A DNA stretch of 64,000 nucleotides from Acidobacteriota bacterium. Its GTDB lineage: Bacteria; Acidobacteriota; Terriglobia; Terriglobales; Acidobacteriaceae. Where the stretch lies: the NCBI GenBank assembly GCA_021780315.1, contig JAJXYY010000024.1, positions 1 through 64,000 of the forward strand. Reading direction: 5' to 3'. A model generated the notes under the pieces. The model ran no database searches. It was not told the origin of the DNA and saw nothing but the letters and a program-made list of their open reading frames with translations. The position numbers and the translations under genes are program-made. Shown here piece after piece: positions 9,734 to 30,997 of this stretch (the first letter of the stretch is position 1; each line of letters begins with the position of its first letter).

Positions 9734-11352
9734 TAGTGTGTTCCTCCGCGAGTGAAGGTGAGAGCCATGTTGAGGGGTACGACGGAGACGAAGAAGAGGT
9801 AGCGAGCGAGCAGGATTCCGAGGGTGGCTGCGACGCAGGCGAGGACGGGATTGCCGACGATGGTGAGGACGGTGGTGGCAGCGACGAGTCCGAAGCAGGC
9901 GATGAGTGCGGCGCGGAGGTCGGGCAGGTTGAGCAAGGTGGCTGATGCACGCTGCTCAAAGAGTGGTGAACGATGGAGACGGACGAGGCGGGTGATTTGG
10001 TTGGTGAGCCAGAGAAGAGTGGCTATGGCTACGGGCCAGGTGGAGTTGTGCTGGGAGGTCGCCGTGGTGAACTGCCACAGGAGTGGGAGATGGGTGATGA
10101 GGGCTTCGATGACGCTGCTGAGGACGGGGTGCAGCGTGGTGCCGAGGAGCAGGGCACTGAGGAGGAAGTCGATAGGAGTGTGGAGCATGTTCCAGGAGGG
10201 TCGAGCGGGAACCAGATAGATGTATGCGCTGGCCAGGATTCCGGCGATGCCGAGCAGGGTGGCGAGGGTACCGAGGGAGTTCTGCAGTACGGAGTTGGTG
10301 GCGAGGGGTTGGAGGCGCTGGAGCGCGGGGATGGGGAGAATGCCAGCCCATGCGATGAGGGTAGCGGTGGTGAGGGTGAGGAAGAAGAGACCGAAGAGGA
10401 GGACCTCGCGGCTGAGCCAAGAGCGCTTCCACATTTTGAGGGCCCGCCAGGCATAGGCAGGGCGGCCAAGATGGAAGACGGATATGTTGAGAGCGACGGC
10501 GGTGATGCCGAGGAGCAGGGTGAGGAACAGCGGAGATGCTGTGTGGCTGAGGAGGGTTACGGCGAGGGCTCCGGTGACGGCCTGCATGAGGGTGGTCATG
10601 AAGACGAGCGAGAGATGCGCGTGCTCGGGACGGATACGTCCGGTATCGACGCGCTCTAGTTGCGCAGAGGACTGGGAGGGCAGGGTGATACGGGTGGTGG
10701 AGATGGTGTGTCCGGCGGCGGGCATGCCGGGGGATTCTGCGGCGGCGTAGTCGACGCGCCATGCGGTCATGTTGACGACTTCGATCTCGATGGCGGCTTC
10801 GGGGCAGGCGTTGACGCAGGCGGGTTCGAGACCATCGGTGAGGCGGCCGTGGCACATATCGCATTTGCCGACGACGCCGCGCTCGGGGTTGAACTGGGGG
10901 ACGGAGTAGGGGCAGTTCCAGACACAGTACTGGCAGCCGATGCAGGCGTCGGCGGAGTGGAGGACGATGCCGGTGACGGGGTCTTTGGTGTAGGCGTCGA
11001 CGGGGCAGCCTTTGACGCACTCGGCATCGAGACAGTGGTTGCAACCCATGGAGAGATAGTGCCGCTGGGTGTCGGGGTAGGAGCCACCTTCGATCTCGCC
11101 GATGCGTCGCCAGCGGATGTCGGTGGGGTTACCGTTCTGCTCGTTGCAGGCGATCTCGCAGGAGCGGCAGCCGATGCACTTGGTCATGTTGAAGTGGAAG
11201 CGGAACTGCTCGTCGGGCAGGAGGGCGCGCTGGGGGATGAGGGAGTCTACTATCTGTGGACCGAAGGAAGGTTTGCCGAGATCATCGAGGGTCATGCGAA
11301 CGAGAGAGCCATCGCTACCGGCGAGTGCGCGATCATGAAGTGGAAGGGACAC
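9733..11352 (-). CDS. Fused DmsB-like four-cluster ferredoxin and DmsC-like membrane anchor
   Basis: Residues about 50-200 hold four cysteine clusters typical of DmsB/NrfC electron-transfer subunits: CIGCRSCEIACN, CNHCLDAECVKGCP, CIGCQYCVWNCP and CDMCHGRL...CVNACP. From about residue 245 to 539 there are around eight membrane helices of the DmsC anchor type. In DMSO reductase these are separate subunits; here they are one polypeptide. It starts at a GTG with AAGGAGAG four bases upstream. Position between the diflavin reductase and nasA with a one-base overlap to nasA implies that it delivers quinol electrons to NasA. No Tat signal is seen, so the FeS domain should face the cytoplasm. Confidence 0.87.
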   Translation of the reverse strand: MSLPLHDRALAGSDGSLVRMTLDDLGKPSFGPQIVDSLIPQRALLPDEQFRFHFNMTKCIGCRSCEIACNEQNGNPTDIRWRRIGEIEGGSYPDTQRHYLSMGCNHCLDAECVKGCPVDAYTKDPVTGIVLHSADACIGCQYCVWNCPYSVPQFNPERGVVGKCDMCHGRLTDGLEPACVNACPEAAIEIEVVNMTAWRVDYAAAESPGMPAAGHTISTTRITLPSQSSAQLERVDTGRIRPEHAHLSLVFMTTLMQAVTGALAVTLLSHTASPLFLTLLLGITAVALNISVFHLGRPAYAWRALKMWKRSWLSREVLLFGLFFLTLTTATLIAWAGILPIPALQRLQPLATNSVLQNSLGTLATLLGIAGILASAYIYLVPARPSWNMLHTPIDFLLSALLLGTTLHPVLSSVIEALITHLPLLWQFTTATSQHNSTWPVAIATLLWLTNQITRLVRLHRSPLFEQRASATLLNLPDLRAALIACFGLVAATTVLTIVGNPVLACVAATLGILLARYLFFVSVVPLNMALTFTRGGTH

Positions 11353-13223: not shown

Positions 13224-14987
13224 TCAGCGGGCCTCATGAGGAGAGCAGAATGATTTGAGTTGAGCGATGTCGTGGCGGCGGCTGAAGCTGAGGAACGACT
13301 CGTCTGGCAGGCGTTGGGTGGTGTAGGCGTGGAATAGCCGCTCCATGACAGGGGGTAGGTCTGCGAACTTGATGGCGGGGATGAGTTCGCGGGCGATGCT
13401 CTGATCCTGATCGGAGCCGCCGCCGATAACGACCTGGTAGCCTTCTTCGCCACCGATTTTGACGCCCATGAGGCCAAGGTCGCCGATGTAGTGCTGGGCG
13501 CAGGAGTGGCTGCAGCCGGTGACGTGGAGGTTTACGGGCTGGTCGATCGGGAAGCGTGCGTCGAGCAGGTTGGCGAGGGCAACGGCATGCTTTTTGGTAT
13601 CGCTGGCGGCGAAGCGACAACCCTGGTTGCCGGTGCAGGCTACGGTGCCGCGGAGCACGGCGCCGGCGGTGATGTTGAGGCCGGCGTCAATGACGGCTAG
13701 TTGCGCGGCTGCGAGGTGCTCGGTTGGGATGTTGGGGATGATGATGTTTTGCCAGACGGTGAGGCGAAGTTCGCTGGAGCCGAAGCGGTCGGCGATGTCG
13801 GCGAGGGCAAGCATTTGGGCGACAGGGAGTTGCCCGACAGGGATCGAGATGCCGATGTAGTGCAAGCCGGACTGGGATTGCGGATGAACGCCGAGGTGAG
13901 CGGCTCGGTCGATGTGGTTGCGCGGTTCGCAGTCTGCGAGGGGGAAACGGATGAGGGGAAAGTCGAGTCGGCTTTCGGTTTCGGCGAGAAAGCGTTCTAC
14001 ACCCCAGCGATCGACGAGGTACTTGAGGCGGGCTTTTTTCCGGTCGGTGCGGTCGCCGTTCTCGGAGAAGACACGGATCATGGCGGCGGTGACGGCTACG
14101 GTCTGGTCGGGGCGGAGGAGCAGGCCGCAGTCGGACGCGAACTGCTTGTGGCCGGTGATGCCGCAGAGGAGGACGCGGAAGTAGATGCCGGCGGGGATGC
14201 CGTGACCTTCGTTGACGCGTACGGCGATGAAGCCGATGTCGTTGGTGTCGGCGACGACGCTGATGGCTCCGCCGTTGTCGAAGGCGACGTTGAACTTACG
14301 GGGGAGGCCAAAGAGATCGCGAGAGTTGAGGATGTAGAGGTTGAGGGCTTCGGCGAGGTGGGCGACGTCGTAAAGTTCGGTAGGGTCGATGCCAGTGATG
14401 GGGGAGGCGGTGATGTTGCGGATATTGTCTGCGCCGGCACCACGGGAGGACATGCCAAGGGCCTGAATTCGAGCGAGGACACGGATGATGTCCTTGGGCT
14501 GGAACTGACGGATCTGGAGGTTGCCGCGGGTTGTGATGTCGCAGCGTCCCGAGCCCCAGTCCTGGGCCATCTGGGCGAGGCCTCGCATCTGGTAGGACGT
14601 GAGTTGGCTGCCGGGGACGCGCATCCTTAGCATGAATGAGTCCTGCGTTGGGGCGACGTAGAAGAGACCATGGAACTTGAAGCGGAAGAGATCGTCGGGG
14701 GTGGGGGGCTTGTTTTCGCTGGCGTGGGCGAGGAGTTTGTCCCAGATATCGAGGGGGTTTTCTTCAAACTTCCAACGTTCTTCTTTACAGAGGTCGGAGA
14801 CGGGGGTGCCGAGGTATGTTTCGTCAGAAGCTTCGTCGGTGTTGCTGGGGAGCGTAGCGGGGGATTGATTTTCAGGAGCGGCAACTGTCGGGAGAGCGAC
14901 CCGGTGAGCAACCCCTGCGAAGAAGCCCTGGAGGTACTGCTTCTGCTGTGAGTCGAAGTCGGCGTAGGTGGTGGATTGCGAATTCAT
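13224..14987 (-). CDS. nirA: Siroheme nitrite (or sulfite) reductase, NirA-type
   Basis: This 587-residue protein has two ferredoxin-like half domains and the siroheme/[4Fe-4S] ligand motifs ACTGNQGCRF and VTGCSHSCAQHYIGDLG. It reduces nitrite to ammonia by six electrons; sulfite reductases of the same family are close relatives and cannot be excluded, since no other cysI is in the window. The N-terminus has an extra tail containing QKQYLQGFFAGV, echoed in the diflavin reductase next door. It is the first gene of the operon, starting at 14987 with GAGGA upstream and a leader of about 245 nt. Confidence 0.88.
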   Translation of the reverse strand: MNSQSTTYADFDSQQKQYLQGFFAGVAHRVALPTVAAPENQSPATLPSNTDEASDETYLGTPVSDLCKEERWKFEENPLDIWDKLLAHASENKPPTPDDLFRFKFHGLFYVAPTQDSFMLRMRVPGSQLTSYQMRGLAQMAQDWGSGRCDITTRGNLQIRQFQPKDIIRVLARIQALGMSSRGAGADNIRNITASPITGIDPTELYDVAHLAEALNLYILNSRDLFGLPRKFNVAFDNGGAISVVADTNDIGFIAVRVNEGHGIPAGIYFRVLLCGITGHKQFASDCGLLLRPDQTVAVTAAMIRVFSENGDRTDRKKARLKYLVDRWGVERFLAETESRLDFPLIRFPLADCEPRNHIDRAAHLGVHPQSQSGLHYIGISIPVGQLPVAQMLALADIADRFGSSELRLTVWQNIIIPNIPTEHLAAAQLAVIDAGLNITAGAVLRGTVACTGNQGCRFAASDTKKHAVALANLLDARFPIDQPVNLHVTGCSHSCAQHYIGDLGLMGVKIGGEEGYQVVIGGGSDQDQSIARELIPAIKFADLPPVMERLFHAYTTQRLPDESFLSFSRRHDIAQLKSFCSPHEAR

Positions 14988-15239
14988 GCGGAAGATCCTC
15001 TTGGGAAAGCTTCAGAAGACTGAAGGTTGCCGTAAAGTTCGTGAACGCGTGGTGCGATGCTGGAGCAGCAAAGCCGACCATGCAGGGCCAGATCGGACAT
15101 CGATATCCTTGATGGAGTTCAAGGCGATGGATTCAGGGCTCTTCGCGGAGCATGAACTGTGATGTGTGAGGAAGTTGCCCGCTCCACGGCATGGTGAGGG
15201 GCGTGTCAGAGAGGCGTTATACGTGCCTACTATGGAGCA

Positions 15240-15267
15240 ACTATAACCTTGTCAGGATGCATGGCAA
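15240..15267 (-). promoter_or_regulatory. Probable sigma-70 promoter of the nitrate operon
   Basis: Read on the minus strand: TTGCCA, 16-bp spacer, TATAGT, each one mismatch from consensus. It would give a leader of about 245 nt before the nirA ATG. Confidence 0.5.
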
Positions 15268-15402
15268 ATCGGAATAGAAAAAAGCTATACGGCGTATTGG
15301 GGGAAATGAATATGCAGTGCGTCAAGCGGGTTTCGGGTCATAAAAAGGTTGCGTGGCACCTGTGCGCATGTTACAAACGCGTTACTGCTACGACCAAGCC
15401 AC

Positions 15403-15438
15403 GACACCTTGACGTGTCATAATCTGCACGTTGGCAGA
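15403..15438 (+). promoter_or_regulatory. Tandem hairpins with six-base loops (candidate ANTAR target)
   Basis: GACAC-CTTGAC-GTGTC, then four bases, then TCTGC-ACGTTG-GCAGA. Both stems are perfect 5-bp stems with hexaloops, the layout of ANTAR-protein RNA targets. The loops only partly fit the known A1/G4 rule (first has G4, second has A1), so the assignment is tentative. Confidence 0.3.
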
Positions 15439-15553
15439 GCGTCCGCCTGAAGATCTTGTGGATGTTTCCGCTGATGTTGAGCCTGGCCCTGATAGCCTGG
15501 CATACACCTCCCAATAGTTACTGAAGCAGCATCCTGCTGGCAAGATGACGGTT

Positions 15554-15565
15554 ACACCATGGTGT
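15554..15565. promoter_or_regulatory. 12-bp palindrome ACACCATGGTGT
   Basis: A perfect palindrome 154 bp upstream of the porin start. A related inverted repeat GGTGT-CGA-ACACC lies at 15670-15682, overlapping the alternative hairpin GTTCG-GTGT-CGAAC (15666-15679). They could be operator half-sites. Confidence 0.3.
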
Positions 15566-15718
15566 CTCTGTCGCTTGTTTGCGGATTTGTTGGTATCGAG
15601 TCCCTCGCTGGTTGCAGGAGATTTTCATCCATTCGGTGGATTCGACTCTTCATGGATTCCTGTAGGTTCGGTGTCGAACACCAACACAATTGAAAGTTAC
15701 TTTTTCCCCTGGAGAATT

Positions 15719-17206
15719 ATGAGAGTTTTTGTCGCCTCGCTATTTTTGACTACAGTTGCTTCGCTGGGACAAACGTCAGTTCCGTCTGCTCCCAAGCCTG
15801 CTGTAACGGGCAAATTGCCGTTTAGCGTGAGTGTGTACGACCGGACGCGTGTGGATACATGGCAGTGGTTTGCGGCGCCTCCGGAGACGGAGACGTACGG
15901 TTATGTCGAGTCGCTGGTGCGGCTGGGGATAGCGCAGCGGATCAAGCATGTGGACTGGCAGTTGGAGTTGTCGCAACCAGCGATGCTGGCGCTGCCGAGT
16001 GCGTCGATCTCACCGGTTGCCGCACAGGGACAGTTGGGGCTGGGAGGCACGTACTATGCCTCGAACGGGAACAACTCGTATCCTGCCGCGGCTTCGCTGA
16101 AGCAGGGATTTGTGCGGTACCACTTTCCGGGCGAGGACAAGTCGGTACGGTTGGGACGGTTTGAGTTCTTTGATGGTCAGGAGTTACAGCCGAAGAATGT
16201 TGCGATGAGTTGGTTGCAGACAAACCGGATTGCACAACGGTTGATCGGCAACTTTGGATTTTCCAATGCGCAGCGGAGTTTTGATGGAATCGACGCACAC
16301 TACGGTGGTAGCGACTGGGATGTCACTGGGATGGCGGCAAGGGCTGATCAGGGTGTGTTCAACATGAATGCAAATCCAGAGCTGAACGTGGATTTGCAGT
16401 ATCTGGCGTTGAGCCGGTTTGAATTAAAGCGGCATTTGCTGTGGCGTGTTTTTGGAATTGGATACCATGACGGTCGGACGGGAGTTTTAAAGACGGACAA
16501 TCGTCCATTGGCAGTGCGCACCGCAGACCATCACAATATTCGTGTGGGCAGCTACGGCGGGGATGTGTTGACTGTGGCACCTGCAGGTCGCGGGCAGTTT
16601 GATTTTCTGGCCTGGGGCGTATTGCAGAATGGCAACTGGGGCGTTCAGCATCATAGCGCGGGAGCGGTGGCGGTTGAAGGTGGGTACCAGTTTACTAAGG
16701 TCGCTTCGCAGCCGTGGGTACGTGGCGGATTCTATCGTGGGACGGGCGATAACAACCCGAATGACGATCAACACAATACGTTCTTCCAGGTGGCTCCGAC
16801 TCCTCGTGTGTATGCGCGGTTTCCATTCTTCAATTTGATGAACAACAAAGACCAGTTCGTCCAAGTGATTGATAAACCGACCAAGAAGCTTGAGTTGCGT
16901 GGCGATCTGCACTGGTTGCAACTGACCTCTGCCAACGATCTTTGGTACCAAGGCGGTGGTGCATTCGACAACAAGGTATTTGGCTTTGTGGGTCGGCCGG
17001 CGAATAGCCACTCGAGCTTTATTTCGTTGGCGGACATTAGCGCGGACTGGCAGGCTACTCATACTCTGGCGTTGAACTTTTACTATGGCCATGCGTGGGG
17101 AAAGTCGGTAGTACGCTCAATTTATCCGACCGGTAGTACAACCCAGTTTGGGTATGTTGAGATGGTTTACCGGTGGGGTGCTGCACAAAGGGCAGCGAGC
17201 AAGTAG
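15719..17206 (+). CDS. Alginate-export-type outer-membrane porin
   Basis: I place the start at ATG 15719 (MRVFVASLFLTTVASLGQ, a signal peptide) with GGAGA just upstream; the track ORF adds 58 improbable residues. The mature protein of about 475 residues is beta-rich with an alginate_exp-like pattern (RLGRFEFFDGQE, LQTNRIAQRLIGNFGF, WQATHTLALNFYYGHAWGKSVV) and ends FGYVEMVYRWGAAQRAASK. Such 16-18-stranded porins pass small anions or sugars. Its place between the nitrate operon and the HemD-GAF-ANTAR regulator suggests outer-membrane uptake of nitrate, but that is inference. Confidence 0.75.
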   Translation: MRVFVASLFLTTVASLGQTSVPSAPKPAVTGKLPFSVSVYDRTRVDTWQWFAAPPETETYGYVESLVRLGIAQRIKHVDWQLELSQPAMLALPSASISPVAAQGQLGLGGTYYASNGNNSYPAAASLKQGFVRYHFPGEDKSVRLGRFEFFDGQELQPKNVAMSWLQTNRIAQRLIGNFGFSNAQRSFDGIDAHYGGSDWDVTGMAARADQGVFNMNANPELNVDLQYLALSRFELKRHLLWRVFGIGYHDGRTGVLKTDNRPLAVRTADHHNIRVGSYGGDVLTVAPAGRGQFDFLAWGVLQNGNWGVQHHSAGAVAVEGGYQFTKVASQPWVRGGFYRGTGDNNPNDDQHNTFFQVAPTPRVYARFPFFNLMNNKDQFVQVIDKPTKKLELRGDLHWLQLTSANDLWYQGGGAFDNKVFGFVGRPANSHSSFISLADISADWQATHTLALNFYYGHAWGKSVVRSIYPTGSTTQFGYVEMVYRWGAAQRAASK

Positions 17207-17266
17207 GCGGAGTGGCGGCGAATATGTTGTTGAATTAGATGTTTTTGCGCAGGCTGTGCGGCGCGT

Positions 17267-17296
17267 CAGAACCGGTACTGCAAGGTGCCGGTTCTG
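17267..17296 (+). terminator. 12-bp stem-loop after the porin gene
   Basis: CAGAACCGGTAC pairs with GTGCCGGTTCTG (one G-U) around the loop TGCAAG. No U tract follows (TCGTGC), so it may be a 3'-end stabiliser, a terminator, or a leader element of the next gene. Confidence 0.5.
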
Positions 17297-17509
17297 TCGT
17301 GCGTCCAGCGGCAATGAAGTGTGGGTTGGGCGAGACGATTTTGTCTGGAGCGCACTTAGCCGCTAGTATCGTGAACAACAGATGAATCGACAGATGCCTG
17401 GGATTGATTGGAAGTGCAACAGGGACGACTGCAGAGCAGGTTTGGCTGCTGTCCGAATAGATTGCGCGCTGAGATTTGACGTTTTATAGATTGTCTTTTG
17501 GGAGAATGT

Positions 17510-19192
17510 ATGGCTCACGCGAGCTTCGACGGACTACGAGTTTTGTCACTGGAGTCACGTCGAGCAAAAGAAGTTGCGAAGTTAATTCGCACATATGGCG
17601 GAGAGGCCTTTGTTGTGCCTTCAATGCGTGAGGTTGGGCTGGAGTCGAATCATCAGGCGTTAGAGTTTTCGGATCGTTTAGTGGCTGGTGATTTTGATCT
17701 GGTACTTTTTTTTACGGGTGTTGGGGTGCGTGCGTTGGTGGACATAGCCGCGACGCGACATCCGCGGGAAGAGTTTCTGGATGCGTTGCGCAAAGTTAAG
17801 GTCGGTGCACGCGGACCGAAGCCTGTGGCGGCGTTGCGGGAGTTGAAGATTCCAGTGACGGCGACGGCATCGGAACCTGCGACCTGGCGCGAGATGATGG
17901 CGGCGTTGGAGATGGAGTTTGGAAGTTCTCTGAGCGAGTTTCGGGTGGCCGTGCAGGAGTATGGGGCTTCGAATCCCGAGTTTTTAGCGGAGTTGACGGA
18001 CCGTTGTGCCGAAGTGACGAAGGTTCCGGTGTACCAGTGGGCGTTGCCTGAAGACCTTCGTCCGCTGCGGGAGTGTGTTCTGGGAATTGCGAACGGTAGC
18101 ATCGATGTGGTGCTGTTTATGACGGCGGTGCAGGTGATCCATCTATTTCAGGTTGCGGAAGAGATGGGGTTTCGGGAGGAGTTGCGAGCGGGGTTGTTGT
18201 CCACTGTGGTGGTGTCCATTGGTCCGACGACCACGGAGGAGTTGGCGCAGTATCAGATTGTCCCTGATTTTGAGCCTTCGAGGCCGAAGATGGGTTTTAT
18301 CGTGAATGAAGCGGCCCAGTACTCGGCCAAGATATTGAAGGAGAAGCGAAGTGGGATTGCGAGTATTGCAATCAAGCCTGCGGCTACGACGACGTTGAAT
18401 GTGACTGCGGCCAAGAGTGCCAGAGGCGTTCCGCGGGTGGCTGCTTCTTCGCCGACGATGGCTGGTTTCCGGGATGGGCTGACGTCGATCGATTTTCTGC
18501 ATGAGGTGAGCAGCCGGATTGCTGCGGCTGACTCGTTTCACGTAGTGCTGGCCAGCATTGTCGATTTTGTGACGACTGTGATCCCTTGTGATTCATGTTT
18601 TATCTATGTGCAGGAGCATGACAAGCTCGTGCTGCGCGCGTCGAAGAATCCGCATGCGGATCTAGTGGATCAGTTGGGCGTGCAGGTTGGGCAGGGAATC
18701 ACTGGCTGGGTTGCCGAGCATCGTGAGCCTGTGGCGATTGCTTCTGGTGCGTCGAATGATTCTCGGTTTGTGATCTTTCGAAATTTACCAGAGGACCATT
18801 TTGAGGCGATTCTGTGTACGCCGATTCTGTGTGCGAACCGCGTGGTTGGGGTGATCAATCTACAGCATCGGTTGACCTATGCGCATACGTCGGAGCAGGT
18901 ACGCTTGCTGTCGATGTTGGGATTTCTGGTGGGTGCGGAGATTGAACGCACGCGACTGGAGACGGAAAACGTGCAGTTGGCAGGCCGCTTGGAGGCACGC
19001 AAGGTGCTGGATCGGGCGAAGGGAATTCTGCAGCGCGATCTGGGGATCAGCGAGGAGGAGGCGTATCGCACGATGCAGCGGGAGAGCCGGCAGCGGCGCA
19101 AGTCGATGCGTGAGATTGCAGATGCGATTGTGCTGGGGGATGACCTAAAGAAGGGGCAGCAGGATGATGAGCACAAGCGTGCTCGCGTGTAA
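17510..19192 (+). CDS. HemD-like / GAF / ANTAR fusion regulator
   Basis: The ATG at 17510 with GGGAGA upstream is preferred over the listed TTG at 17498; 560 residues. Residues about 8-275 form a uroporphyrinogen-III synthase (HemD) fold of the type found in NnaR-like regulators (RGPKPVAALREL, VPVYQWALPEDLRPL, SIGPTTTEELAQY, PSRPKMGFIVNEAA). Residues about 325-475 are a GAF domain (VQVGQGITGWVAEHREPVAI, ILCTPILCANRVVGVINLQ). Residues about 485-545 are an ANTAR RNA-binding domain (EARKVLDRAKGILQRDLGISEEEAYRTMQ, MREIADAIVL). ANTAR proteins bind paired hairpins in mRNA leaders and prevent termination. Neighbours are nitrate and sulfate assimilation genes, so a siroheme/nitrate-linked regulator is likely; it may or may not retain synthase activity. 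Confidence 0.88.
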   Translation: MAHASFDGLRVLSLESRRAKEVAKLIRTYGGEAFVVPSMREVGLESNHQALEFSDRLVAGDFDLVLFFTGVGVRALVDIAATRHPREEFLDALRKVKVGARGPKPVAALRELKIPVTATASEPATWREMMAALEMEFGSSLSEFRVAVQEYGASNPEFLAELTDRCAEVTKVPVYQWALPEDLRPLRECVLGIANGSIDVVLFMTAVQVIHLFQVAEEMGFREELRAGLLSTVVVSIGPTTTEELAQYQIVPDFEPSRPKMGFIVNEAAQYSAKILKEKRSGIASIAIKPAATTTLNVTAAKSARGVPRVAASSPTMAGFRDGLTSIDFLHEVSSRIAAADSFHVVLASIVDFVTTVIPCDSCFIYVQEHDKLVLRASKNPHADLVDQLGVQVGQGITGWVAEHREPVAIASGASNDSRFVIFRNLPEDHFEAILCTPILCANRVVGVINLQHRLTYAHTSEQVRLLSMLGFLVGAEIERTRLETENVQLAGRLEARKVLDRAKGILQRDLGISEEEAYRTMQRESRQRRKSMREIADAIVLGDDLKKGQQDDEHKRARV

Positions 19193-19230
19193 TGCAACGA
19201 TATCGTCCGCCCGTCGCACTTAGTTCAATG

Positions 19231-19236
19231 TTGACA
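19231..19236 (+). promoter_or_regulatory. TTGACA -35-like element upstream of cysD
   Basis: A perfect TTGACA lies 246 bp before cysD, but the -10 candidate at 18-bp spacing (AGGCTA) is weak. It would produce a long leader carrying the 19393-19431 hairpin. Confidence 0.3.
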
Positions 19237-19392
19237 AAGTATCTGTAGTCGTTCAGGCTAGTAAGCAATGGTTATCACTTCCACCACGATGGCATGTTGC
19301 ATGTACGGCACGATGTGTTGCTGTATGGCATGTGCACGTGGGTGTGAGTGTTGTTGATAGCTATCTAAATCTATCTCGATAACTCGAAACAC

Positions 19393-19431
19393 AAGCCCCC
19401 ACACTCTGCAGTTCAGGAATGTGGGCTTTTT
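19393..19431 (+). terminator. Terminator/attenuator hairpin before cysD
   Basis: AAGCCC(CC)ACA pairs with TGTGGGCTT, two C residues bulged, followed by TTTTT. It sits between the regulator stop (19192) and cysD (19477). It could simply end the regulator transcript or act as an attenuator in the cys leader. Confidence 0.65.
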
Positions 19432-19476
19432 GTTTTGTGCTACTCCGCTTTCTCACTACTTTAGACAGGATTGATT

Positions 19477-20415
19477 ATGGGATCTTCCGCAACGCTGGAA
19501 ATGGTCGTGCCGAGTGCCGCGAAGCTGAGTCATCTGCAGATGCTGGAGGCGGAGAGTATTCATATCTTCCGCGAGGTGGCATCGGAGTTTCAGAAGCCGG
19601 TGATGTTGTATTCGATCGGCAAGGACTCGTCGGTGATGTTGCGCCTGGCGCAGAAGGCATTTTTCCCTGGACCGATACCGTTTCCTCTGTTGCATGTGGA
19701 CACGGGATACAAGTTCAACGAGATGATTACGTTTCGCGATGAGCAGGCGGCCTCGCTGGGGCTGGATCTGCGGGTGTGGCGAAATGAGCAGGCACTGGCG
19801 GATGGAGCGAATCCGGTACGACTGGGGACGCAGCGGTGCTGCGGTCTGCTGAAGACGACCGCTTTGCTGGATGGCTTGCGGGCGCATGGCTTCGATGCTG
19901 CGTTTGGCGGTGCACGGCGCGATGAAGAGAAGTCCCGTGCGAAGGAGCGGATCTTTTCGTTCCGCGACCGGGCGGGCCAGTGGGATCCGAAGAACCAGCG
20001 TCCGGAGGTTTGGAACCACTACAACGGGCGGATCTCACCGGGGGAGAGCATTCGTGTGTTTCCTTTATCGAACTGGACGGAGTTGGACATCTGGCACTAC
20101 ATCCTGCTGGAGGAGATACCGATTGTGCCGCTGTACTTCGCGAAGGAGCGACGGATGATTGTGCGGGCGGACAGCCTGATTCCGGTGGAGCAGACGTTTG
20201 TACATGGCCTGCCGGGTGAGGAGCAATGGGTGCGTTCGCGGCTGCGTTCGCTGGGGTGCAGTCCTTGCACGGGCGCCATACGGTCGGATGCGGATACGAT
20301 TCCGAAGATCATTGCCGAGTTGGTTTCGTTTCGATCATCGGAGCGTGCGAATCGAGTGATTGACCACGACCAAGACGGATCGATGGAGATCAAGAAACGC
20401 GAGGGGTATTTCTAA
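19477..20415 (+). CDS. cysD: Sulfate adenylyltransferase subunit 2
   Basis: The start is the ATG at 19477 (MGSSATLEM) with ACAGGA upstream; 312 residues. The PP-loop ATP-binding motif is [14 protein letters not shown], followed by [31 protein letters not shown] and the C-terminal [13 protein letters not shown] typical of CysD. With CysN it adenylates sulfate to APS. Its stop abuts the cysN ATG without a gap, giving the coupled order cysD-cysN-cysH. Confidence 0.96.
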
Positions 20416-22077
20416 ATGACGACTACCGGTGGAATGTTGGATAGCGAGCAGAGTGAGTTTGCGATCGAAGAGTTTTTGGCGCTGGAACAGACGAAAGACC
20501 TGCTGCGTTTTAGTACAGCGGGTAGCGTGGATGATGGAAAGTCGACTTTGATTGGGCGACTGTTGTACGACTCGCGCAATGTTTACGAAGACCAAGTACG
20601 AGCGGTTACGGGCACGCGGGTCGGACAGAAACATGGCGTGATCGACTTTGCACAATTGACCGATGGACTGCGTGCGGAGCGCGAGCAGGGTATTACGATC
20701 GACGTTGCATATCGCTATTTCTCGACGCAGCGGCGAAAGTTCATTATTGCGGATACCCCGGGCCATGAGCAGTACACGCGAAATATGGCGACTGGCGCGT
20801 CTACGGCGGACCTGGCGATCATCCTTATTGATGCGCGGAAGGGGATTCTTACGCAGTCGCGGAGGCATGCGTATATTGCGTCGCTGCTGGGGATTCGTCA
20901 TCTGGTGGCAGCGGTGAACAAGATGGATCTGGTTGAGTTTTCCGAGGAGGTATACCGGAGTATTGAAGGGGAGCTGGAGGAGCTGGTTGCTAGCTTCGGA
21001 CGGGCCAAGCTCGTGACGATTCCGGTGAGTGCACTGGACGGCGACAACGTAGTTGAAGCCAGCGAGCGTATGCCGTGGTATACGGGGCCGACGCTGTTGG
21101 AGCATCTGGAGGCTGTACCGGTGTGGAAGGAAGAGGCCAGCCAGGCGTTGCGCCTGCCGGTGCAGCGGGTGATTCGGCCGGACCAGAATTATCGCGGATT
21201 TGCCGGGCAGATAGCCGCAGGCACGGTGCGTAAGGGAGATGTTGTGGCGGTGTTGCCGTCGGGACAGTCAAGCCGGATTGCATCGATCACTACGTTTCAT
21301 GGGGATTTGGACGAGGCCAGTGCGCCACTTTCGATTGCGGTGACGCTGGAGGATGAGTTGGATATCAGTCGCGGCGATGTGCTCGTTGACGCAACGCGAT
21401 TACCGCAGCAATCAAGTTCGCTGGAGGCGTCGCTGGTATGGTTCGACGGGGATCGGCTGGAGACGCATAAGCCTTATCTGCTGAAGCATGGAGCGCAGAC
21501 GGTGAGTGCGCGCGTGAGTCGGGTACTGCATCGCACCAACATCCAGACTGTGACAGCGGAGGCGGTAAGTTCGCTGGCGATGAATGATATTGGCGTGGTT
21601 CAGGTTGAGCTGATTCGCCCGATTTTTTTCGACGCTTACGAGGAAAACCGTGCGAGCGGGAGTTTTATCCTGATCGATCCGGTGACGAATGCGACTGTGG
21701 CTGCGGGGATGATTCGCGGCGGGCTGCAGGCTGCAGGGAGTGGAGATGTGGCGCGGCAGAAGGCGGGGGTGATCTTCGCTGAGGATGATTCGATGGCTGC
21801 TGCCGTGGAGTCGATTTTGTTGGCGGAGGGATGGCCGGTAGTTACGACGTGTGTGCAGGATGAGCAACTGTTGCGAGCTTTGCTGAGCCTGAGAGTGGCG
21901 GTGATCGTCCGTGCTACCGGGGGAGATGGATTGAACCTGAACGGCTTGAACGTACTGCATGTGAGCGATTTTGTTGGTCAAGACGGCGCAGTCGAAGACG
22001 GTGACGCTGCGGCTGCCGTGGTCGATGCGCTACGAAACTGGAGCGGAGTTGCCGGTCAAAAAGGAGATGGACGATGA
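20416..22077 (+). CDS. cysN: Sulfate adenylyltransferase subunit 1 (GTPase) with an unusual C-terminal extension
   Basis: EF-Tu-like GTPase with G1 GSVDDGKST, G3 DTPGHEQY, G4 NKMD and the following beta-barrel domains; it drives the CysD reaction by GTP hydrolysis. At 553 residues it is about 80-100 longer than ordinary CysN. The extra part (roughly residue 440 onward: AEDDSMAAAVESILLAEGW, LLRALLSLRVAVIVRATGG) has no P-loop, so it is not a working APS kinase; it may be a decayed CysC-like domain or something new. It overlaps the cysH start by four bases (ATGA). Confidence 0.93.
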   Translation: MTTTGGMLDSEQSEFAIEEFLALEQTKDLLRFSTAGSVDDGKSTLIGRLLYDSRNVYEDQVRAVTGTRVGQKHGVIDFAQLTDGLRAEREQGITIDVAYRYFSTQRRKFIIADTPGHEQYTRNMATGASTADLAIILIDARKGILTQSRRHAYIASLLGIRHLVAAVNKMDLVEFSEEVYRSIEGELEELVASFGRAKLVTIPVSALDGDNVVEASERMPWYTGPTLLEHLEAVPVWKEEASQALRLPVQRVIRPDQNYRGFAGQIAAGTVRKGDVVAVLPSGQSSRIASITTFHGDLDEASAPLSIAVTLEDELDISRGDVLVDATRLPQQSSSLEASLVWFDGDRLETHKPYLLKHGAQTVSARVSRVLHRTNIQTVTAEAVSSLAMNDIGVVQVELIRPIFFDAYEENRASGSFILIDPVTNATVAAGMIRGGLQAAGSGDVARQKAGVIFAEDDSMAAAVESILLAEGWPVVTTCVQDEQLLRALLSLRVAVIVRATGGDGLNLNGLNVLHVSDFVGQDGAVEDGDAAAAVVDALRNWSGVAGQKGDGR

Positions 22078-22784
22078 GTGAATTCGCTTTGACGTATCAG
22101 CAGAAAGTTGCTGCAGCCCATGCACTTGTGGAACTCGAGTTAGAGCGTGGGGGAACAGATGTTTGCGTGACGAGCAGCTTCCAAGCTGAGGACGTGGTGG
22201 TGCTGCAGATGGTTCGGCAGATACTGCCAGAGGTGCCGGTGATCTTTCTTGACACGGGTTATCACTTTGCTGAGGTTTATTCGTATCGGGATGCAATGGC
22301 GCGAACGTGGTCGCTGAACCTGACGAGTCTGCAACCGGAGTTGACGGTAGCAGAGCAGGAGAGCAAGTTCGGGATTCTGAACCAAAGTGATCCGGGGCGT
22401 TGCTGCGGGATGCGGAAGGTGACGCCGTTATTTGCGGCACTGGATCAGTACCGATTGTGGTTTACGGGACTGCGACGAGAGCAGGCCAAGAGCCGTGCCG
22501 CACTGCAGATCGTGGAAGATTTTCGGTTGCCAACGGGGCGGGATATTCGCAAGATCAGTCCGTTGACGGATTGGACGACGAAGGATGTGTGGAGCTTTGC
22601 GGCTGAGCAGGGTATTCCACTTCTGAGTTTGTATGACAAGGGCTATTCGAGCATTGGGTGTGAGCCGTGTACGAGCCTGCCAATGGACCCGAACGATCCG
22701 CGTTCCGGACGTTGGGGCGGGCAGAAACAGGAGTGTGGGATTCATCTACAGCCAAGCCGGAGTAGCGAACAAGAAAGCGTGTGA
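22074..22784 (+). CDS. cysH: Assimilatory adenylyl-sulfate (APS) reductase, [4Fe-4S] type
   Basis: This 236-residue PP-loop reductase contains both cysteine pairs that bind a [4Fe-4S] cluster (GRCCGMRK and GCEPCT) plus the catalytic ECGIH near the C-terminus. These pairs mark enzymes that use APS directly rather than PAPS, consistent with no APS kinase gene nearby. It makes sulfite, with electrons from thioredoxin. It overlaps cysN by four bases and the downstream TauE gene by four bases (GTGA). Confidence 0.94.
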   Translation: MSEFALTYQQKVAAAHALVELELERGGTDVCVTSSFQAEDVVVLQMVRQILPEVPVIFLDTGYHFAEVYSYRDAMARTWSLNLTSLQPELTVAEQESKFGILNQSDPGRCCGMRKVTPLFAALDQYRLWFTGLRREQAKSRAALQIVEDFRLPTGRDIRKISPLTDWTTKDVWSFAAEQGIPLLSLYDKGYSSIGCEPCTSLPMDPNDPRSGRWGGQKQECGIHLQPSRSSEQESV

Positions 22785-23539
22785 TTGTGGACTTTTTGAT
22801 TGGATTTGTTATTGCGGTGGTGATTGCATTGACCGGAGTGGGGGCGGGTGTGATTACCGCTCCGCTGCTGATCCTGTTCCTGGGGGTTCCGGTAGAGGTA
22901 GCGGTGAGCACGGCGCTGGCCTACTCGGCGATTGTGAAGTTGATTGTGGTTCCGGTGCAGGTGGTTCGTAAGCAGGTGTCGTACCGTGTGCTGGGGATGA
23001 TGCTAATGGGGGGCTTGCCGGGAGTGGTGGCCGGTTCGCTTCTGTTTAAGCATGTTGCGATGCACGGACCACGAACGGTGCTGTACTTTGTGCTGGGCGC
23101 GATCATTATGTTTACTTCGGGATGGCATTTGTTTCGGCACTTTCGTCCGGCGGGAATTGCGCGGCCGGTGGTGGAGCGACCAAGATGGATTGCGGCGATC
23201 ATGCTGCCAATTGGGGCTGAGGTTGGATTTTCTTCGTCTGGGGCCGGGGCTTTGGGTACGGTTGCGTTGCTGAGTTTGACGTCATTGACGGCCGCGCAGG
23301 TGGTGGGGACGGACCTGGCGTTTGGGTTGTGCATTGCGTTGGCTGGAACGGGAGTTCACCTGATTGGTGGGACTTACGCCGGGCCGCTGTTATTGAAGAT
23401 GGCGATGGGTGGTGTGGCGGGCGGAGTTGTAGGAAGTACTGCGGCACCGAAGATTCCAAACCGTAAGCTGCGGTTTGCGTTGTCGGTGTGGCTGATGATG
23501 ATTGGGCTGCAGTTCTGCTACCAGGCGGCGATGAAGTAG
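22781..23539 (+). CDS. TauE/SafE family sulfite/sulfur-anion permease
   Basis: This 252-residue integral membrane protein has about eight helices and the family motifs GVGAGVITAPLLILFLGVP near the N-terminus and VGFSSSGAGALGTVALLSLT in the second half. TauE/SafE proteins move sulfite, sulfoacetate or related anions. The GTG start overlaps the cysH stop, so it belongs to the cys operon, where it may import sulfate or relieve sulfite excess. No CysTWA or SulP sulfate transporter is in the window. Confidence 0.88.
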   Translation: MIVDFLIGFVIAVVIALTGVGAGVITAPLLILFLGVPVEVAVSTALAYSAIVKLIVVPVQVVRKQVSYRVLGMMLMGGLPGVVAGSLLFKHVAMHGPRTVLYFVLGAIIMFTSGWHLFRHFRPAGIARPVVERPRWIAAIMLPIGAEVGFSSSGAGALGTVALLSLTSLTAAQVVGTDLAFGLCIALAGTGVHLIGGTYAGPLLLKMAMGGVAGGVVGSTAAPKIPNRKLRFALSVWLMMIGLQFCYQAAMK

Positions 23540-28523: not shown

Positions 28524-29339
28524 CTAGTAGTGTTGGTATGCCTGGTTGAAGACTGGTCGCGGCTGTGCGTGTATGAAGGCAGAGACGTCGTAGGCTTGCT
28601 GGGCAGAGAGAATGCCCATGCGGTTTTGTGGCATGTTGTGCTTGACGAACGCGGCCATTTTGGCGACGTTGTTCATGCCGGCACCGTCGTTGAAAGAGTA
28701 CGGACCCCAGAGCGGCGGGAAGAGCGGCGCTCGGCCTTGTCCGTGTGAGCCATGACAGCCAGCACATTGTTCTTTGTAGATTTGCTCGCCATGGACAGGG
28801 TCAGGCTTGAGATCGGGCAGTTTGATGAGGCCTCGCCCGACGAAGGGTCTGCGGTCGGGTTGGGGAAGTGAAAGCCATTGGATGTACGCGACGATGTCCT
28901 GCATTTCCGTACCTTGGTAGTCGACGGGCTTTCCGTTTTCGCTGCGGACGAAGCACTCTTCGACTCGGTCCTGCAGGGAGATTTTACGTCCAGCGCGCTG
29001 GTTGAACATAGGAAAGAGAGCAGGAAGGCCGACCATGGGTGAGGCATAAGGCTGGATGCCACCTTCGGCGTGGCAGTTGGAGCAACTTACTTTGGACGAG
29101 GTGTATTTTGAGGCGTAGTGAGGGGTCTCATTGAAGAGGAGTTCACCGCGGCGGACGTTGTCTCCTTGTGGGCCGGGGGGAATGTTGCCGTGGCGTGGCG
29201 CCACCCATGCCATGGCGTGACGCGGCGGGTGAGGGGGATAGAAGAGCGACAGATGATGCAGGTGGAGTCCCCAAGCGATGATGCCAAGATACAGGAGAGC
29301 CGTCAGCAGGACGGTAACGATGGCCCAGTTTCTCTGCAT
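28524..29339 (-). CDS. Membrane-anchored diheme cytochrome c (thiosulfate dehydrogenase/TsdA-like)
   Basis: The start is the ATG at 29339 (MQRNWAIVTVLLTALLYLGII), overlapping the stop of the upstream gene as TGATG; 271 residues. An uncleaved N-terminal helix anchors two cytochrome c domains with CSNCH (about residue 107) and CAGCH (about residue 190). Domain order and motifs such as ECFVRSENGKP and QDIVAYIQWLS recall TsdA-type enzymes and related diheme cytochromes. It is the last gene of a three-gene periplasmic operon with a ModA-like and a DsrE-like protein, pointing to sulfur-compound electron transfer. Confidence 0.82.
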   Translation of the reverse strand: MQRNWAIVTVLLTALLYLGIIAWGLHLHHLSLFYPPHPPRHAMAWVAPRHGNIPPGPQGDNVRRGELLFNETPHYASKYTSSKVSCSNCHAEGGIQPYASPMVGLPALFPMFNQRAGRKISLQDRVEECFVRSENGKPVDYQGTEMQDIVAYIQWLSLPQPDRRPFVGRGLIKLPDLKPDPVHGEQIYKEQCAGCHGSHGQGRAPLFPPLWGPYSFNDGAGMNNVAKMAAFVKHNMPQNRMGILSAQQAYDVSAFIHAQPRPVFNQAYQHY

Positions 29340-30280
29340 CAATGATCTCGACTGGCGGTGATGTGCTTGAAGCCAAACTCGGCGTAGGCCGCTTGCGCTT
29401 GATCGGATTGGAGGTAGGCGATCCATGCGGCAGCGGCGGCGGAGTGCGGGGCGCTATGGACCACACCGGCGGCGTAGATGGCTGTGGTGTTGACATCGTC
29501 GGGAATCGCTACGCCAGAGATTGGATTCCCAATCTTCTGTTGGAAGCGAACCTCCGAGGCCCAGACGACGCCGGCATCGGCTTTGCCCTGCAGGATGCGC
29601 ATGGGAGTCTGGCGGTGGTGAATCTGAGTGAGCGATGTGGTGCCGTCGTGTACCTTTTGCGTGTAGACCGTATCCACCAGGGACTGCCCGCCGGCTTTAC
29701 GGAGTGAGTCGGATACCTGGCGCGCAACACCTTCGGTTTCAGGATTGGGCATCGCGAGGCGCAGGGTAGGGGCAGCGAGATCCTTGAGCCCAGTGATGTG
29801 CTTTGGATTTCCTGCGGCGACCATGATTTCAAGGTTGTTCGTGGCGTAGCGAACGACGTTGTCGACGATGCCTTGCTGGTGCAGGTCGTCGAGGACGCGG
29901 GCACCTGCCTCATAGACATCGGGGACGACGTGGAGGGTGAGATTGCCAACGGTGATGGTGTTGTCCTGCTGCATCTGCTTGCGCAGGATGCCGGGAGGGA
30001 GGGTCTCGTAAAAGATGTGGCCTGCCAGTTCCGGATGTTGCTTTTCAAAACCTGCGATGAGCCGGGGCAGGACGAAGAACTGATTGCCGCCAATGAAGAG
30101 CACCAGTTTAGCGTCCTGAGGGTTGCCGTGCAGGTCGGGTATGTTGTCCACGTCATCTACGTGAAAGACGAGCCCTTTGCTTGGGGCTGGATTGTTAGCG
30201 CCGGCACTCCATGGTGGCGCGGTCTGAGCGATGGCGCAGACCGGGAGCAGCAGTGTAGTTGCCAGAGTGATTTTACGCAT
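29339..30280 (-). CDS. ModA-like periplasmic substrate-binding protein
   Basis: This 313-residue protein has a signal peptide (MRKITLATTLLLPVCAIAQ) and a type-2 periplasmic binding fold similar to molybdate-binding ModA (VLPRLIAGFEKQHPELAG, LEIMVAAGNPKHITGLKDL, ILQGKADAGVVWASEV, AAAWIAYLQSDQAQAAYAEFGF). No ABC permease or ATPase is adjacent. Instead it is coupled by a one-base overlap to a diheme cytochrome, which suggests presentation of an oxyanion to a redox enzyme rather than import. The ligand is unknown. Confidence 0.8.
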   Translation of the reverse strand: MRKITLATTLLLPVCAIAQTAPPWSAGANNPAPSKGLVFHVDDVDNIPDLHGNPQDAKLVLFIGGNQFFVLPRLIAGFEKQHPELAGHIFYETLPPGILRKQMQQDNTITVGNLTLHVVPDVYEAGARVLDDLHQQGIVDNVVRYATNNLEIMVAAGNPKHITGLKDLAAPTLRLAMPNPETEGVARQVSDSLRKAGGQSLVDTVYTQKVHDGTTSLTQIHHRQTPMRILQGKADAGVVWASEVRFQQKIGNPISGVAIPDDVNTTAIYAAGVVHSAPHSAAAAAWIAYLQSDQAQAAYAEFGFKHITASRDH

Positions 30281-30304
30281 CTTGGTAGAGTCCTTCAGTG
30301 ATGG

Positions 30305-30997
30305 CTAAATGGTGATGTAGGTGAAGTGACCATCGGACTGGAGCAGGGAGACTGCGGCGACCATGGCAGGTACGATAAGAACGCCTGGGATGAGGTGTGC
30401 CTGCAGGTCTTGCACAATCTCTTCGACTGAGCTTTTGATTGCGTATTTGGCGACGAGTGCGTGTGCCTGTTCTTCGGTTGCGGTGTGGCAACTGAGGAAG
30501 AGGACGCCACGAGCCTGAAGGGCTTCGATGCTGGTGTCCTGCAGGGGGGAGTCAGCCTCGTTGGGGTTGGTCGAGGTGCCGCTGGATTTACGTAGATAGA
30601 TGTTGCGTGTGGCTGGCTTGCCGGTTTTAGGATCGGTGACCTGGAGCCACTCGCCGAGGCGATACTTCTCCCACATGGCGTCGTCGAAGTTGAGCATGTT
30701 GGATGGGCCGTGGAGGGCAGCGGCGAGCTTGATCTGGTTGGCGGGGATGTTGAAGCCGTAGTGAAAGCCGTTCAAGGAATTCTTGATGTTACTGAGAAAT
30801 TTGCCTTCGCCGATGGCGCGGATGTCAAAGACCTGTTTTGCGCGTGCGGGGTGTTTGATGAGTTGATCAAACTCCGCAAACTTCCAGTCGGAGTGCTGGT
30901 AGACCAGTTGAGCCTGAGCCGAGGGAAGAGCAAGGCTGGCGAAGGCAGCCATACCGGTGGAGATGGTTCCTACGAAGGATCTGCGTGAAAGGCTCAT
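30305..30997 (-). CDS. Tat-exported DsrE/F-like protein
   Basis: I use the ATG at 30997 (MSLSRRSFVGTISTG), which opens a twin-arginine signal; 230 residues. The mature part has the DsrE/F fold pattern: LAAALHGPSNMLNFDD, ARGVLFLSCHTATEEQA and the C-terminal PGVLIVPAMVAAVSLLQSDGHFTYI. Cys in FLSCHTA aligns with the region holding the active cysteine in sulfur-carrier relatives. DsrE-type proteins carry or transfer sulfane sulfur, though a periplasmic Tat-exported form is unusual. First gene of the DsrE/ModA-like/cytochrome operon. Confidence 0.72.
   Translation of the reverse strand: MSLSRRSFVGTISTGMAAFASLALPSAQAQLVYQHSDWKFAEFDQLIKHPARAKQVFDIRAIGEGKFLSNIKNSLNGFHYGFNIPANQIKLAAALHGPSNMLNFDDAMWEKYRLGEWLQVTDPKTGKPATRNIYLRKSSGTSTNPNEADSPLQDTSIEALQARGVLFLSCHTATEEQAHALVAKYAIKSSVEEIVQDLQAHLIPGVLIVPAMVAAVSLLQSDGHFTYITI

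Follow-up and report, generated by a model that had tools for sequence, protein, structure and literature searches.

The analysed stretch of acidobacterial DNA (64,000 nucleotides, hereafter the window) carries three minus-strand genes in a row, read from the sequence at positions 30997–30305, 30280–29339, and 29339–28524. They encode a homologue of the thiosulfate dehydrogenase TSD, a periplasmic binding protein (SBP), and a diheme cytochrome c of the TsdA type. The TSD-like gene starts with the ATG at 30997 and stops at 30305. A gap of 24 bp separates it from the SBP gene, and the ATG of the cytochrome gene at 29339 overlaps the TGA of the SBP gene by one base (TGATG); the cytochrome gene stops at 28524. 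The first-pass annotation had described this tight row, a 24-bp gap followed by a one-base overlap, and had noted the lack of transporter subunits. On re-reading, the coordinates and gene calls were found to be correct, and no gene for a transporter subunit is present within the operon. The features are as follows:

30305–30997, minus strand: Tat-exported DsrE-fold protein, homologue of the Acidithiobacillus TSD, 230 aa (NF052225, AF2/Foldseek, tree)
30488–30490, minus strand: the only Cys codon of the TSD-like protein (invariant in 49/49 homologues)
29339–30280, minus strand: 313-aa SBP of the ModA/sulfate-binding type, with no partner genes of an ABC transporter (PF13531; AF2/Foldseek)
28524–29339, minus strand: 271-aa diheme cytochrome c of the TsdA type, with a hydrophobic anchor at its N-terminus (PF21342, Cytochrom_C, AvTsdA structures)
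29070–29084, minus strand: heme 1 motif CSNCH, the active-site heme by homology (aligned with CRHCH of AvTsdA)
28953–28955, minus strand: Cys129 codon, predicted axial ligand of heme 1 (Cys96 of AvTsdA; present in 73/73 sequences)
28752–28766, minus strand: heme 2 motif CAGCH (aligned with CLACH of AvTsdA)
28632–28634, minus strand: Met236 codon, predicted ligand of heme 2 (Met209 of AvTsdA, by alignment)

One flank of the operon is occupied by a GH3 hydrolase and an MR/MLE enolase-superfamily enzyme, and the other by a GH31 hydrolase. As these flanking genes are sugar-degrading, the trio stands alone at its place in the window. At 0.58, the GC content of the operon matches that of the window (0.585); base composition therefore neither supports nor excludes horizontal transfer. 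No tandem repeats were found. Elsewhere in the window, a stretch of sulfur/nitrogen assimilation-like genes (13224–23539) ends ~5 kb from the operon; it includes a sulfite/nitrite reductase (NIR_SIR), a TauE/SafE sulfite exporter, and a PAPS-reductase-domain protein directly followed by a GTP-binding EF-Tu/eEF1A-like protein (CysD/CysN-like). A 564-aa protein encoded at 17498–19192 joins a uroporphyrinogen-III synthase domain with GAF and ANTAR domains, a combination that is perhaps notable. At 9733–11352, near the NIR_SIR gene, a 4Fe-4S protein and a DmsC-like membrane anchor share one reading frame.

The N-terminus of the TSD-like protein, MSLSRRSFVG, is a Tat signal (motif SRRSF), further followed by ...PSAQA. 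The protein matched the NCBIfam profile NF052225 (thiosulfate dehydrogenase TSD) with an E-value of 7.5e-31 and 107 bits over profile positions 66–257 of 259, the first ~65 positions being missing from it. As the curated cut-off of NF052225 is 300 bits, the protein is a homologue and not a filed member of this family. The true TSDs score 353–416 bits and are ~24–31% identical to the proteins of the window kind. The two TSDs of Acidithiobacillus ferruginosus, both encoded in a tsd–sbp–doxDA cluster, reached 407 and 416 bits; these scores, together with the name of the profile, suggest that NF052225 models the TSD of A. ferrooxidans. The latter protein (AFE_0042, ~25 kDa) is described in a review as probably periplasmic and tetrathionate-forming, with no observed reduction of either ubiquinone or horse cytochrome c (PMC6335251).

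The search of the TSD-like protein against Pfam matched no family, DsrE/DsrF (PF02635) included, and a weak line for HlyE (0.14) was judged to be due to chance; a sequence search of the PDB also gave no match. The AlphaFold model, based on an alignment with 49 homologues, had a mean pLDDT of 89.5. Its best Foldseek match was the DsrE-like protein 2pd2 (probability 1.00, TM-score 0.69 by target length), and it also matched 3pnx, a putative DsrE sulfurtransferase (probability 0.95). The name DsrE-like, given to this protein by the first-pass annotation, therefore stands for the fold but not for the Pfam family. The single Cys (Cys170 counted from the ATG, 171 in the translated frame) is kept in all 49 homologues. 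The first-pass annotation had proposed a check for a conserved Cys and had named a fold other than DsrE-like as a refutation; the Cys is there, and the modelled structure has the DsrE-like fold. Like the exported DsrE-family sulfur proteins (PF02635), the protein combines this fold with a conserved Cys located where a strand ends; it differs from them in the missing PF02635 match and in its place within a larger TSD-related group.

The residues His97, Cys171, His172, and His202 are common to the window protein and the true TSDs. Each of the six true-TSD rows has the three His residues, as do nearly all of the TSD-like proteins from acidobacteria, the exceptions being two rows that differ at His202 and the tandem second copies of loci L078 and L080, in which His97 is Arg. 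These His residues are missing from the remaining DsrE-like proteins with Tat export in the class. In the midpoint-rooted tree, the acidobacterial TSD-like proteins and the true TSDs form one branch apart from the other Tat-exported DsrE-like proteins (support 98/99). Kinship with TSD is thus evident at the level of sequence, and the chemistry of the protein would find its best parallel in DsrE3A of Metallosphaera, which is reported to form a Cys-S-thiosulfonate on reaction with tetrathionate (PMC4175335). The tandem pairs of TSD-like genes precede the SBP gene at L078 (5200–6914) and L080 (5338–6891).

The second protein matched PF13531 (SBP_bac_11) with an E-value of 2.1e-46. Its score with the modA equivalog TIGR01256 was 44.4 bits, under the curated cut-off of 62.5, and no modBC genes accompany it in the operon; the earlier description of a ModA-like binding protein is sound at the level of the wider family. 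The AF2 model (pLDDT 89.7) was closest to ModA, SubI, and sulfate-binding proteins in Foldseek. The SBP occurs in a single copy in the host genome and is the most conserved member of the trio, with a mean identity of 64% in 51 complete loci (TSD 55%, TsdA 50%).

The third protein scored 46 bits with PF21342 (SoxA/TsdA cytochrome domain; cut-off 27) and was also above the cut-off of Cytochrom_C. It aligned over its length with the TsdA of A. vinosum (AvTsdA; 4wqc, E-value 4.7e-50; 4wq7 and 4v2k, ~1e-49) and keeps both CXXCH motifs as well as Arg82, Arg92, Cys96, Ser100, and Met209 in the AvTsdA numbering. Both motifs, Arg92, Cys96, and Ser100 are invariant in 73 aligned sequences, Arg82 is present in 70 of them, and Met209 in all except one contig-truncated row. 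The Pfam and AvTsdA structure matches and the intact predicted active site confirmed that the gene encodes a membrane-anchored TsdA-like diheme cytochrome, as first annotated. The two hemes, the Cys-ligated heme 1, the active-site residues, and the heme 2 Met are shared with the A. vinosum and Campylobacter jejuni enzymes; the membrane anchor and the fixed company of TSD and SBP set the window protein apart.

The three proteins could also have been re-targeted to another sulfur substrate, such as sulfite, an organic thiosulfonate, or polysulfide. The low identity between the TSD-like proteins and the true TSDs would allow this, but the active-site residues of TsdA are nearly unchanged in the 73 sequences and the Cys and three His residues are common to the true TSDs, and we consider such a change of substrate improbable.

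In the window protein, Asn precedes the heme 2 Met, as in C. jejuni TsdA, in contrast to the Lys of AvTsdA. Asn is found here in 58 of the 73 sequences, which makes it by far the commonest residue at this site. TsdA enzymes are bidirectional, and that of C. jejuni is a physiological tetrathionate reductase (PMC5146829). The system might thus run in reverse: the SBP would capture tetrathionate and the TsdA-like cytochrome would reduce it to thiosulfate, serving as an electron sink or for detoxification. We hold this to be rather unlikely. The exchange Asn254Lys in C. jejuni TsdA did not simply reverse the direction and did not convert the enzyme into a thiosulfate oxidiser (PMC5146829), which means that this residue alone does not fix the direction, and the homology of the first protein to the tetrathionate-forming TSD also speaks against the reductive direction.

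For the analysis of the gene order, the SBP alignment was scanned over ~85,000 species genomes. This gave 337 relatives, and the best 80 of the 337 loci were kept; TSD and TsdA played no part in choosing them. The kept loci are mostly from Acidobacteria, with others from Acidithiobacillus, Sideroxydans, other Proteobacteria, and one Gemmatimonadota record. As this set leans to close relatives, the fractions given here are valid for the best 80 loci and do not extend to the whole 337. The denominator is the 66 SBPs that have enough sequence on either side. TSD lies directly upstream and TsdA directly downstream of the SBP in 49 of these 66 loci from the best 80 of 337. Another eight have TSD and no separate adjacent TsdA match; these include both DoxDA copies of A. 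ferruginosus, a locus whose SBP and TsdA share a reading frame, and a locus in which TsdA comes one gene later, after a diheme cytochrome. A ~680-aa multiheme–TsdA fusion is found upstream of the SBP in 7/66, and TsdA follows the SBP with no TSD in 2/66. The intergenic distances across the loci are operon-like.

Within these best 80 of 337 loci, each of the 66 SBPs with readable flanks adjoins TSD or TsdA, and none is without both. This bears on the view that the SBP is an orphan that binds molybdate or sulfate for a distant ABC transporter and is merely a neighbour of the other two genes, a view that its ModA/sulfate-binding fold and the weak modA match would favour. We judge it very unlikely in the face of these fixed neighbours, the score below the modA cut-off, and the single copy in the genome. 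Moreover, the clustering of neighbours revealed no generally kept ABC partner; the one ABC ATPase cluster came from four near-identical loci.

Among 151 genomes of the class, five genomes besides that of the window contain the SBP, and TsdA comes just after it in all five. TSD stands just before it in G083, G084, and G096, the end of a TSD is visible at the contig edge in G148, and the contig of G020 ends just before the SBP. TSDs above the NCBIfam cut-off also occur in such loci: the order is tsd–sbp–tsdA in L025/L109, from an acidobacterium of a different family, and tsd–sbp–diheme cytochrome–tsdA in L107, a proteobacterial record. The distance matrices of the three proteins correlate with r of 0.74–0.84 (permutation maxima 0.21–0.40), a correlation that may partly reflect the shared descent of the hosts. 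The carriers include the cultured Acidipila rosea and Edaphobacter aggregans. Within the genus of the window, the SBP is patchy (5 of 62 genomes), a pattern compatible with gain and loss, whether or not transfer was involved. One of the same-genus copies (L132, G320:C108:31156–31899) has three in-frame TGA codons and is probably decayed. A patchy distribution is what chance neighbours without a joint function might show, but we give this explanation hardly any credit, because the order is kept across families in 49/66 loci of the best 80 of 337 and is also found in the true-TSD loci of another family. The survey of gene neighbourhoods suggested by the first-pass annotation thus revealed conservation of the three-gene order far beyond chance, and the refuting outcome named there, a lack of such conservation in other genomes, did not occur.

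A fused cbb3-type oxidase gene (COX1, FixO, and cytochrome c domains) lies directly upstream of TSD in 22 loci, on the same strand and at a distance of 4 to 207 bp. This neighbour makes it plausible that a chain runs from thiosulfate via TsdA to oxygen, and it favours the oxidative direction over tetrathionate reduction. The fused gene is neither beside the operon of the window nor found in the host genome, which has three heme-copper oxidases. Two other routes were considered for the host and rejected: the Sox system (SoxAX/SoxB), since the SoxA profile match of 33.7 bits is under the cut-off of 110 and no SoxB match was found in the host genome, and the S4I pathway with DoxDA, since the best DoxD match was 21.2 bits (cut-off 22.7). 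The operon of the window contains no doxDA, rhd, or resA.

The SBP is also found in other company. In seven proteobacterial loci without TSD (L097, L093, L098, L101, L103, L104, and L110), the ~680-aa protein, in which TsdA is fused to the C-terminus of a multiheme cytochrome (L097:4774–6819), is followed by the same SBP and then by an exported DsrE protein (PF02635). A YeeE/YedE sulfur transporter lies near the SBP in six loci, namely five of these seven and that of A. ferruginosus. In the genus of the window, TsdA without TSD or SBP occurs near a small exported DsrE protein (PF02635) at L112 (4052–6730), L113 (3873–5386), and L114 (3507–4984), in the first case together with a TauE/SafE exporter. 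The SBP/DsrE and lone-TsdA/DsrE loci point to a recurring theme, in which an exported DsrE-fold protein accompanies a redox enzyme that oxidises thiosulfate, whether the SBP is present or not.

The first-pass annotation could not match the operon to a named pathway. This holds only in part, as the tsd–sbp–doxDA cluster of A. ferrooxidans (AFE_0042–AFE_0044; PMC6335251 Fig. 6, PMC2754497 table) agrees with it in the TSD homology and the adjacent sbp, but has DoxDA where the window has TsdA. In both cases the gene of a Tat-exported TSD comes first, that of a periplasmic binding protein second, and that of a thiosulfate-oxidising electron-transfer enzyme third. The third gene encodes the quinone-linked DoxDA in the Acidithiobacillus cluster and a TsdA-type diheme cytochrome c in the window, and the TSD of the window is a diverged, shorter homologue. 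A. ferruginosus (L099) has TSD and SBP followed by DoxDA twice, with SBPs 48–52% identical to that of the window, which demonstrates the exchange of TsdA for DoxDA in Acidithiobacillus. DoxDA is a thiosulfate:quinone oxidoreductase, and its presence in the place of TsdA is a further argument against the reductive direction. As the tsd–sbp–doxDA cluster is already known, TSD beside SBP is not new. Our search of open papers found no description of a tsd–sbp–tsdA operon or of TSD in Acidobacteria, and we could not find there an earlier account of the union of TSD and SBP with TsdA, its breadth, or its link to the cbb3-type oxidase.

The periplasmic sulfur redox module proposed by the first-pass annotation is thus well supported by the conserved order, the DsrE-like fold, and the invariant Cys. 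The identity of the parts, the intact catalytic residues, the conserved order, and the cbb3 neighbour are established as far as sequence comparison goes. On these grounds, we consider that the operon probably encodes a periplasmic thiosulfate-oxidation module forming tetrathionate (probability about 0.75). Thiosulfate as the substrate, tetrathionate as the product, the oxidative direction, delivery by the SBP, and the role of TsdA as the electron outlet for TSD are what we infer from them. The SBP would catch periplasmic thiosulfate and hand it to the enzymes and not to an importer, and the Cys of the TSD-like protein would carry a thiosulfonate group. Via its Cys-ligated heme 1, the TsdA cytochrome would join two thiosulfates to tetrathionate, and the two electrons would leave through heme 2 for a c-type cytochrome and finally a terminal oxidase. 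TsdA would thereby combine the role of an oxidoreductase with that of an outlet for the electrons of the TSD-like protein, in the place taken by DoxDA in Acidithiobacillus.

Earlier descriptions treat TSD and TsdA as distinct kinds of thiosulfate dehydrogenase, and the two were thought to be alternatives. More tentatively, TSD, SBP, and TsdA might even form one three-part thiosulfate dehydrogenase. In such an enzyme, the SBP would be a soluble substrate-delivery subunit and not part of a transporter, the single-Cys TSD would carry the thiosulfonate intermediate, and TsdA would be the missing electron acceptor of the TSD-type enzymes, with DoxDA as an exchangeable substitute in Acidithiobacillus.

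The presence of TSD and TsdA in one operon makes the electron acceptor of TSD testable. The widespread TSD–SBP–TsdA operon, often located behind a cbb3-type oxidase, provides a direct candidate for this acceptor and suggests what the so far unexplained binding protein may do. Acidobacteria are usually regarded as polymer-degrading heterotrophs, and the operon points to a possible lithotrophic energy source for them.
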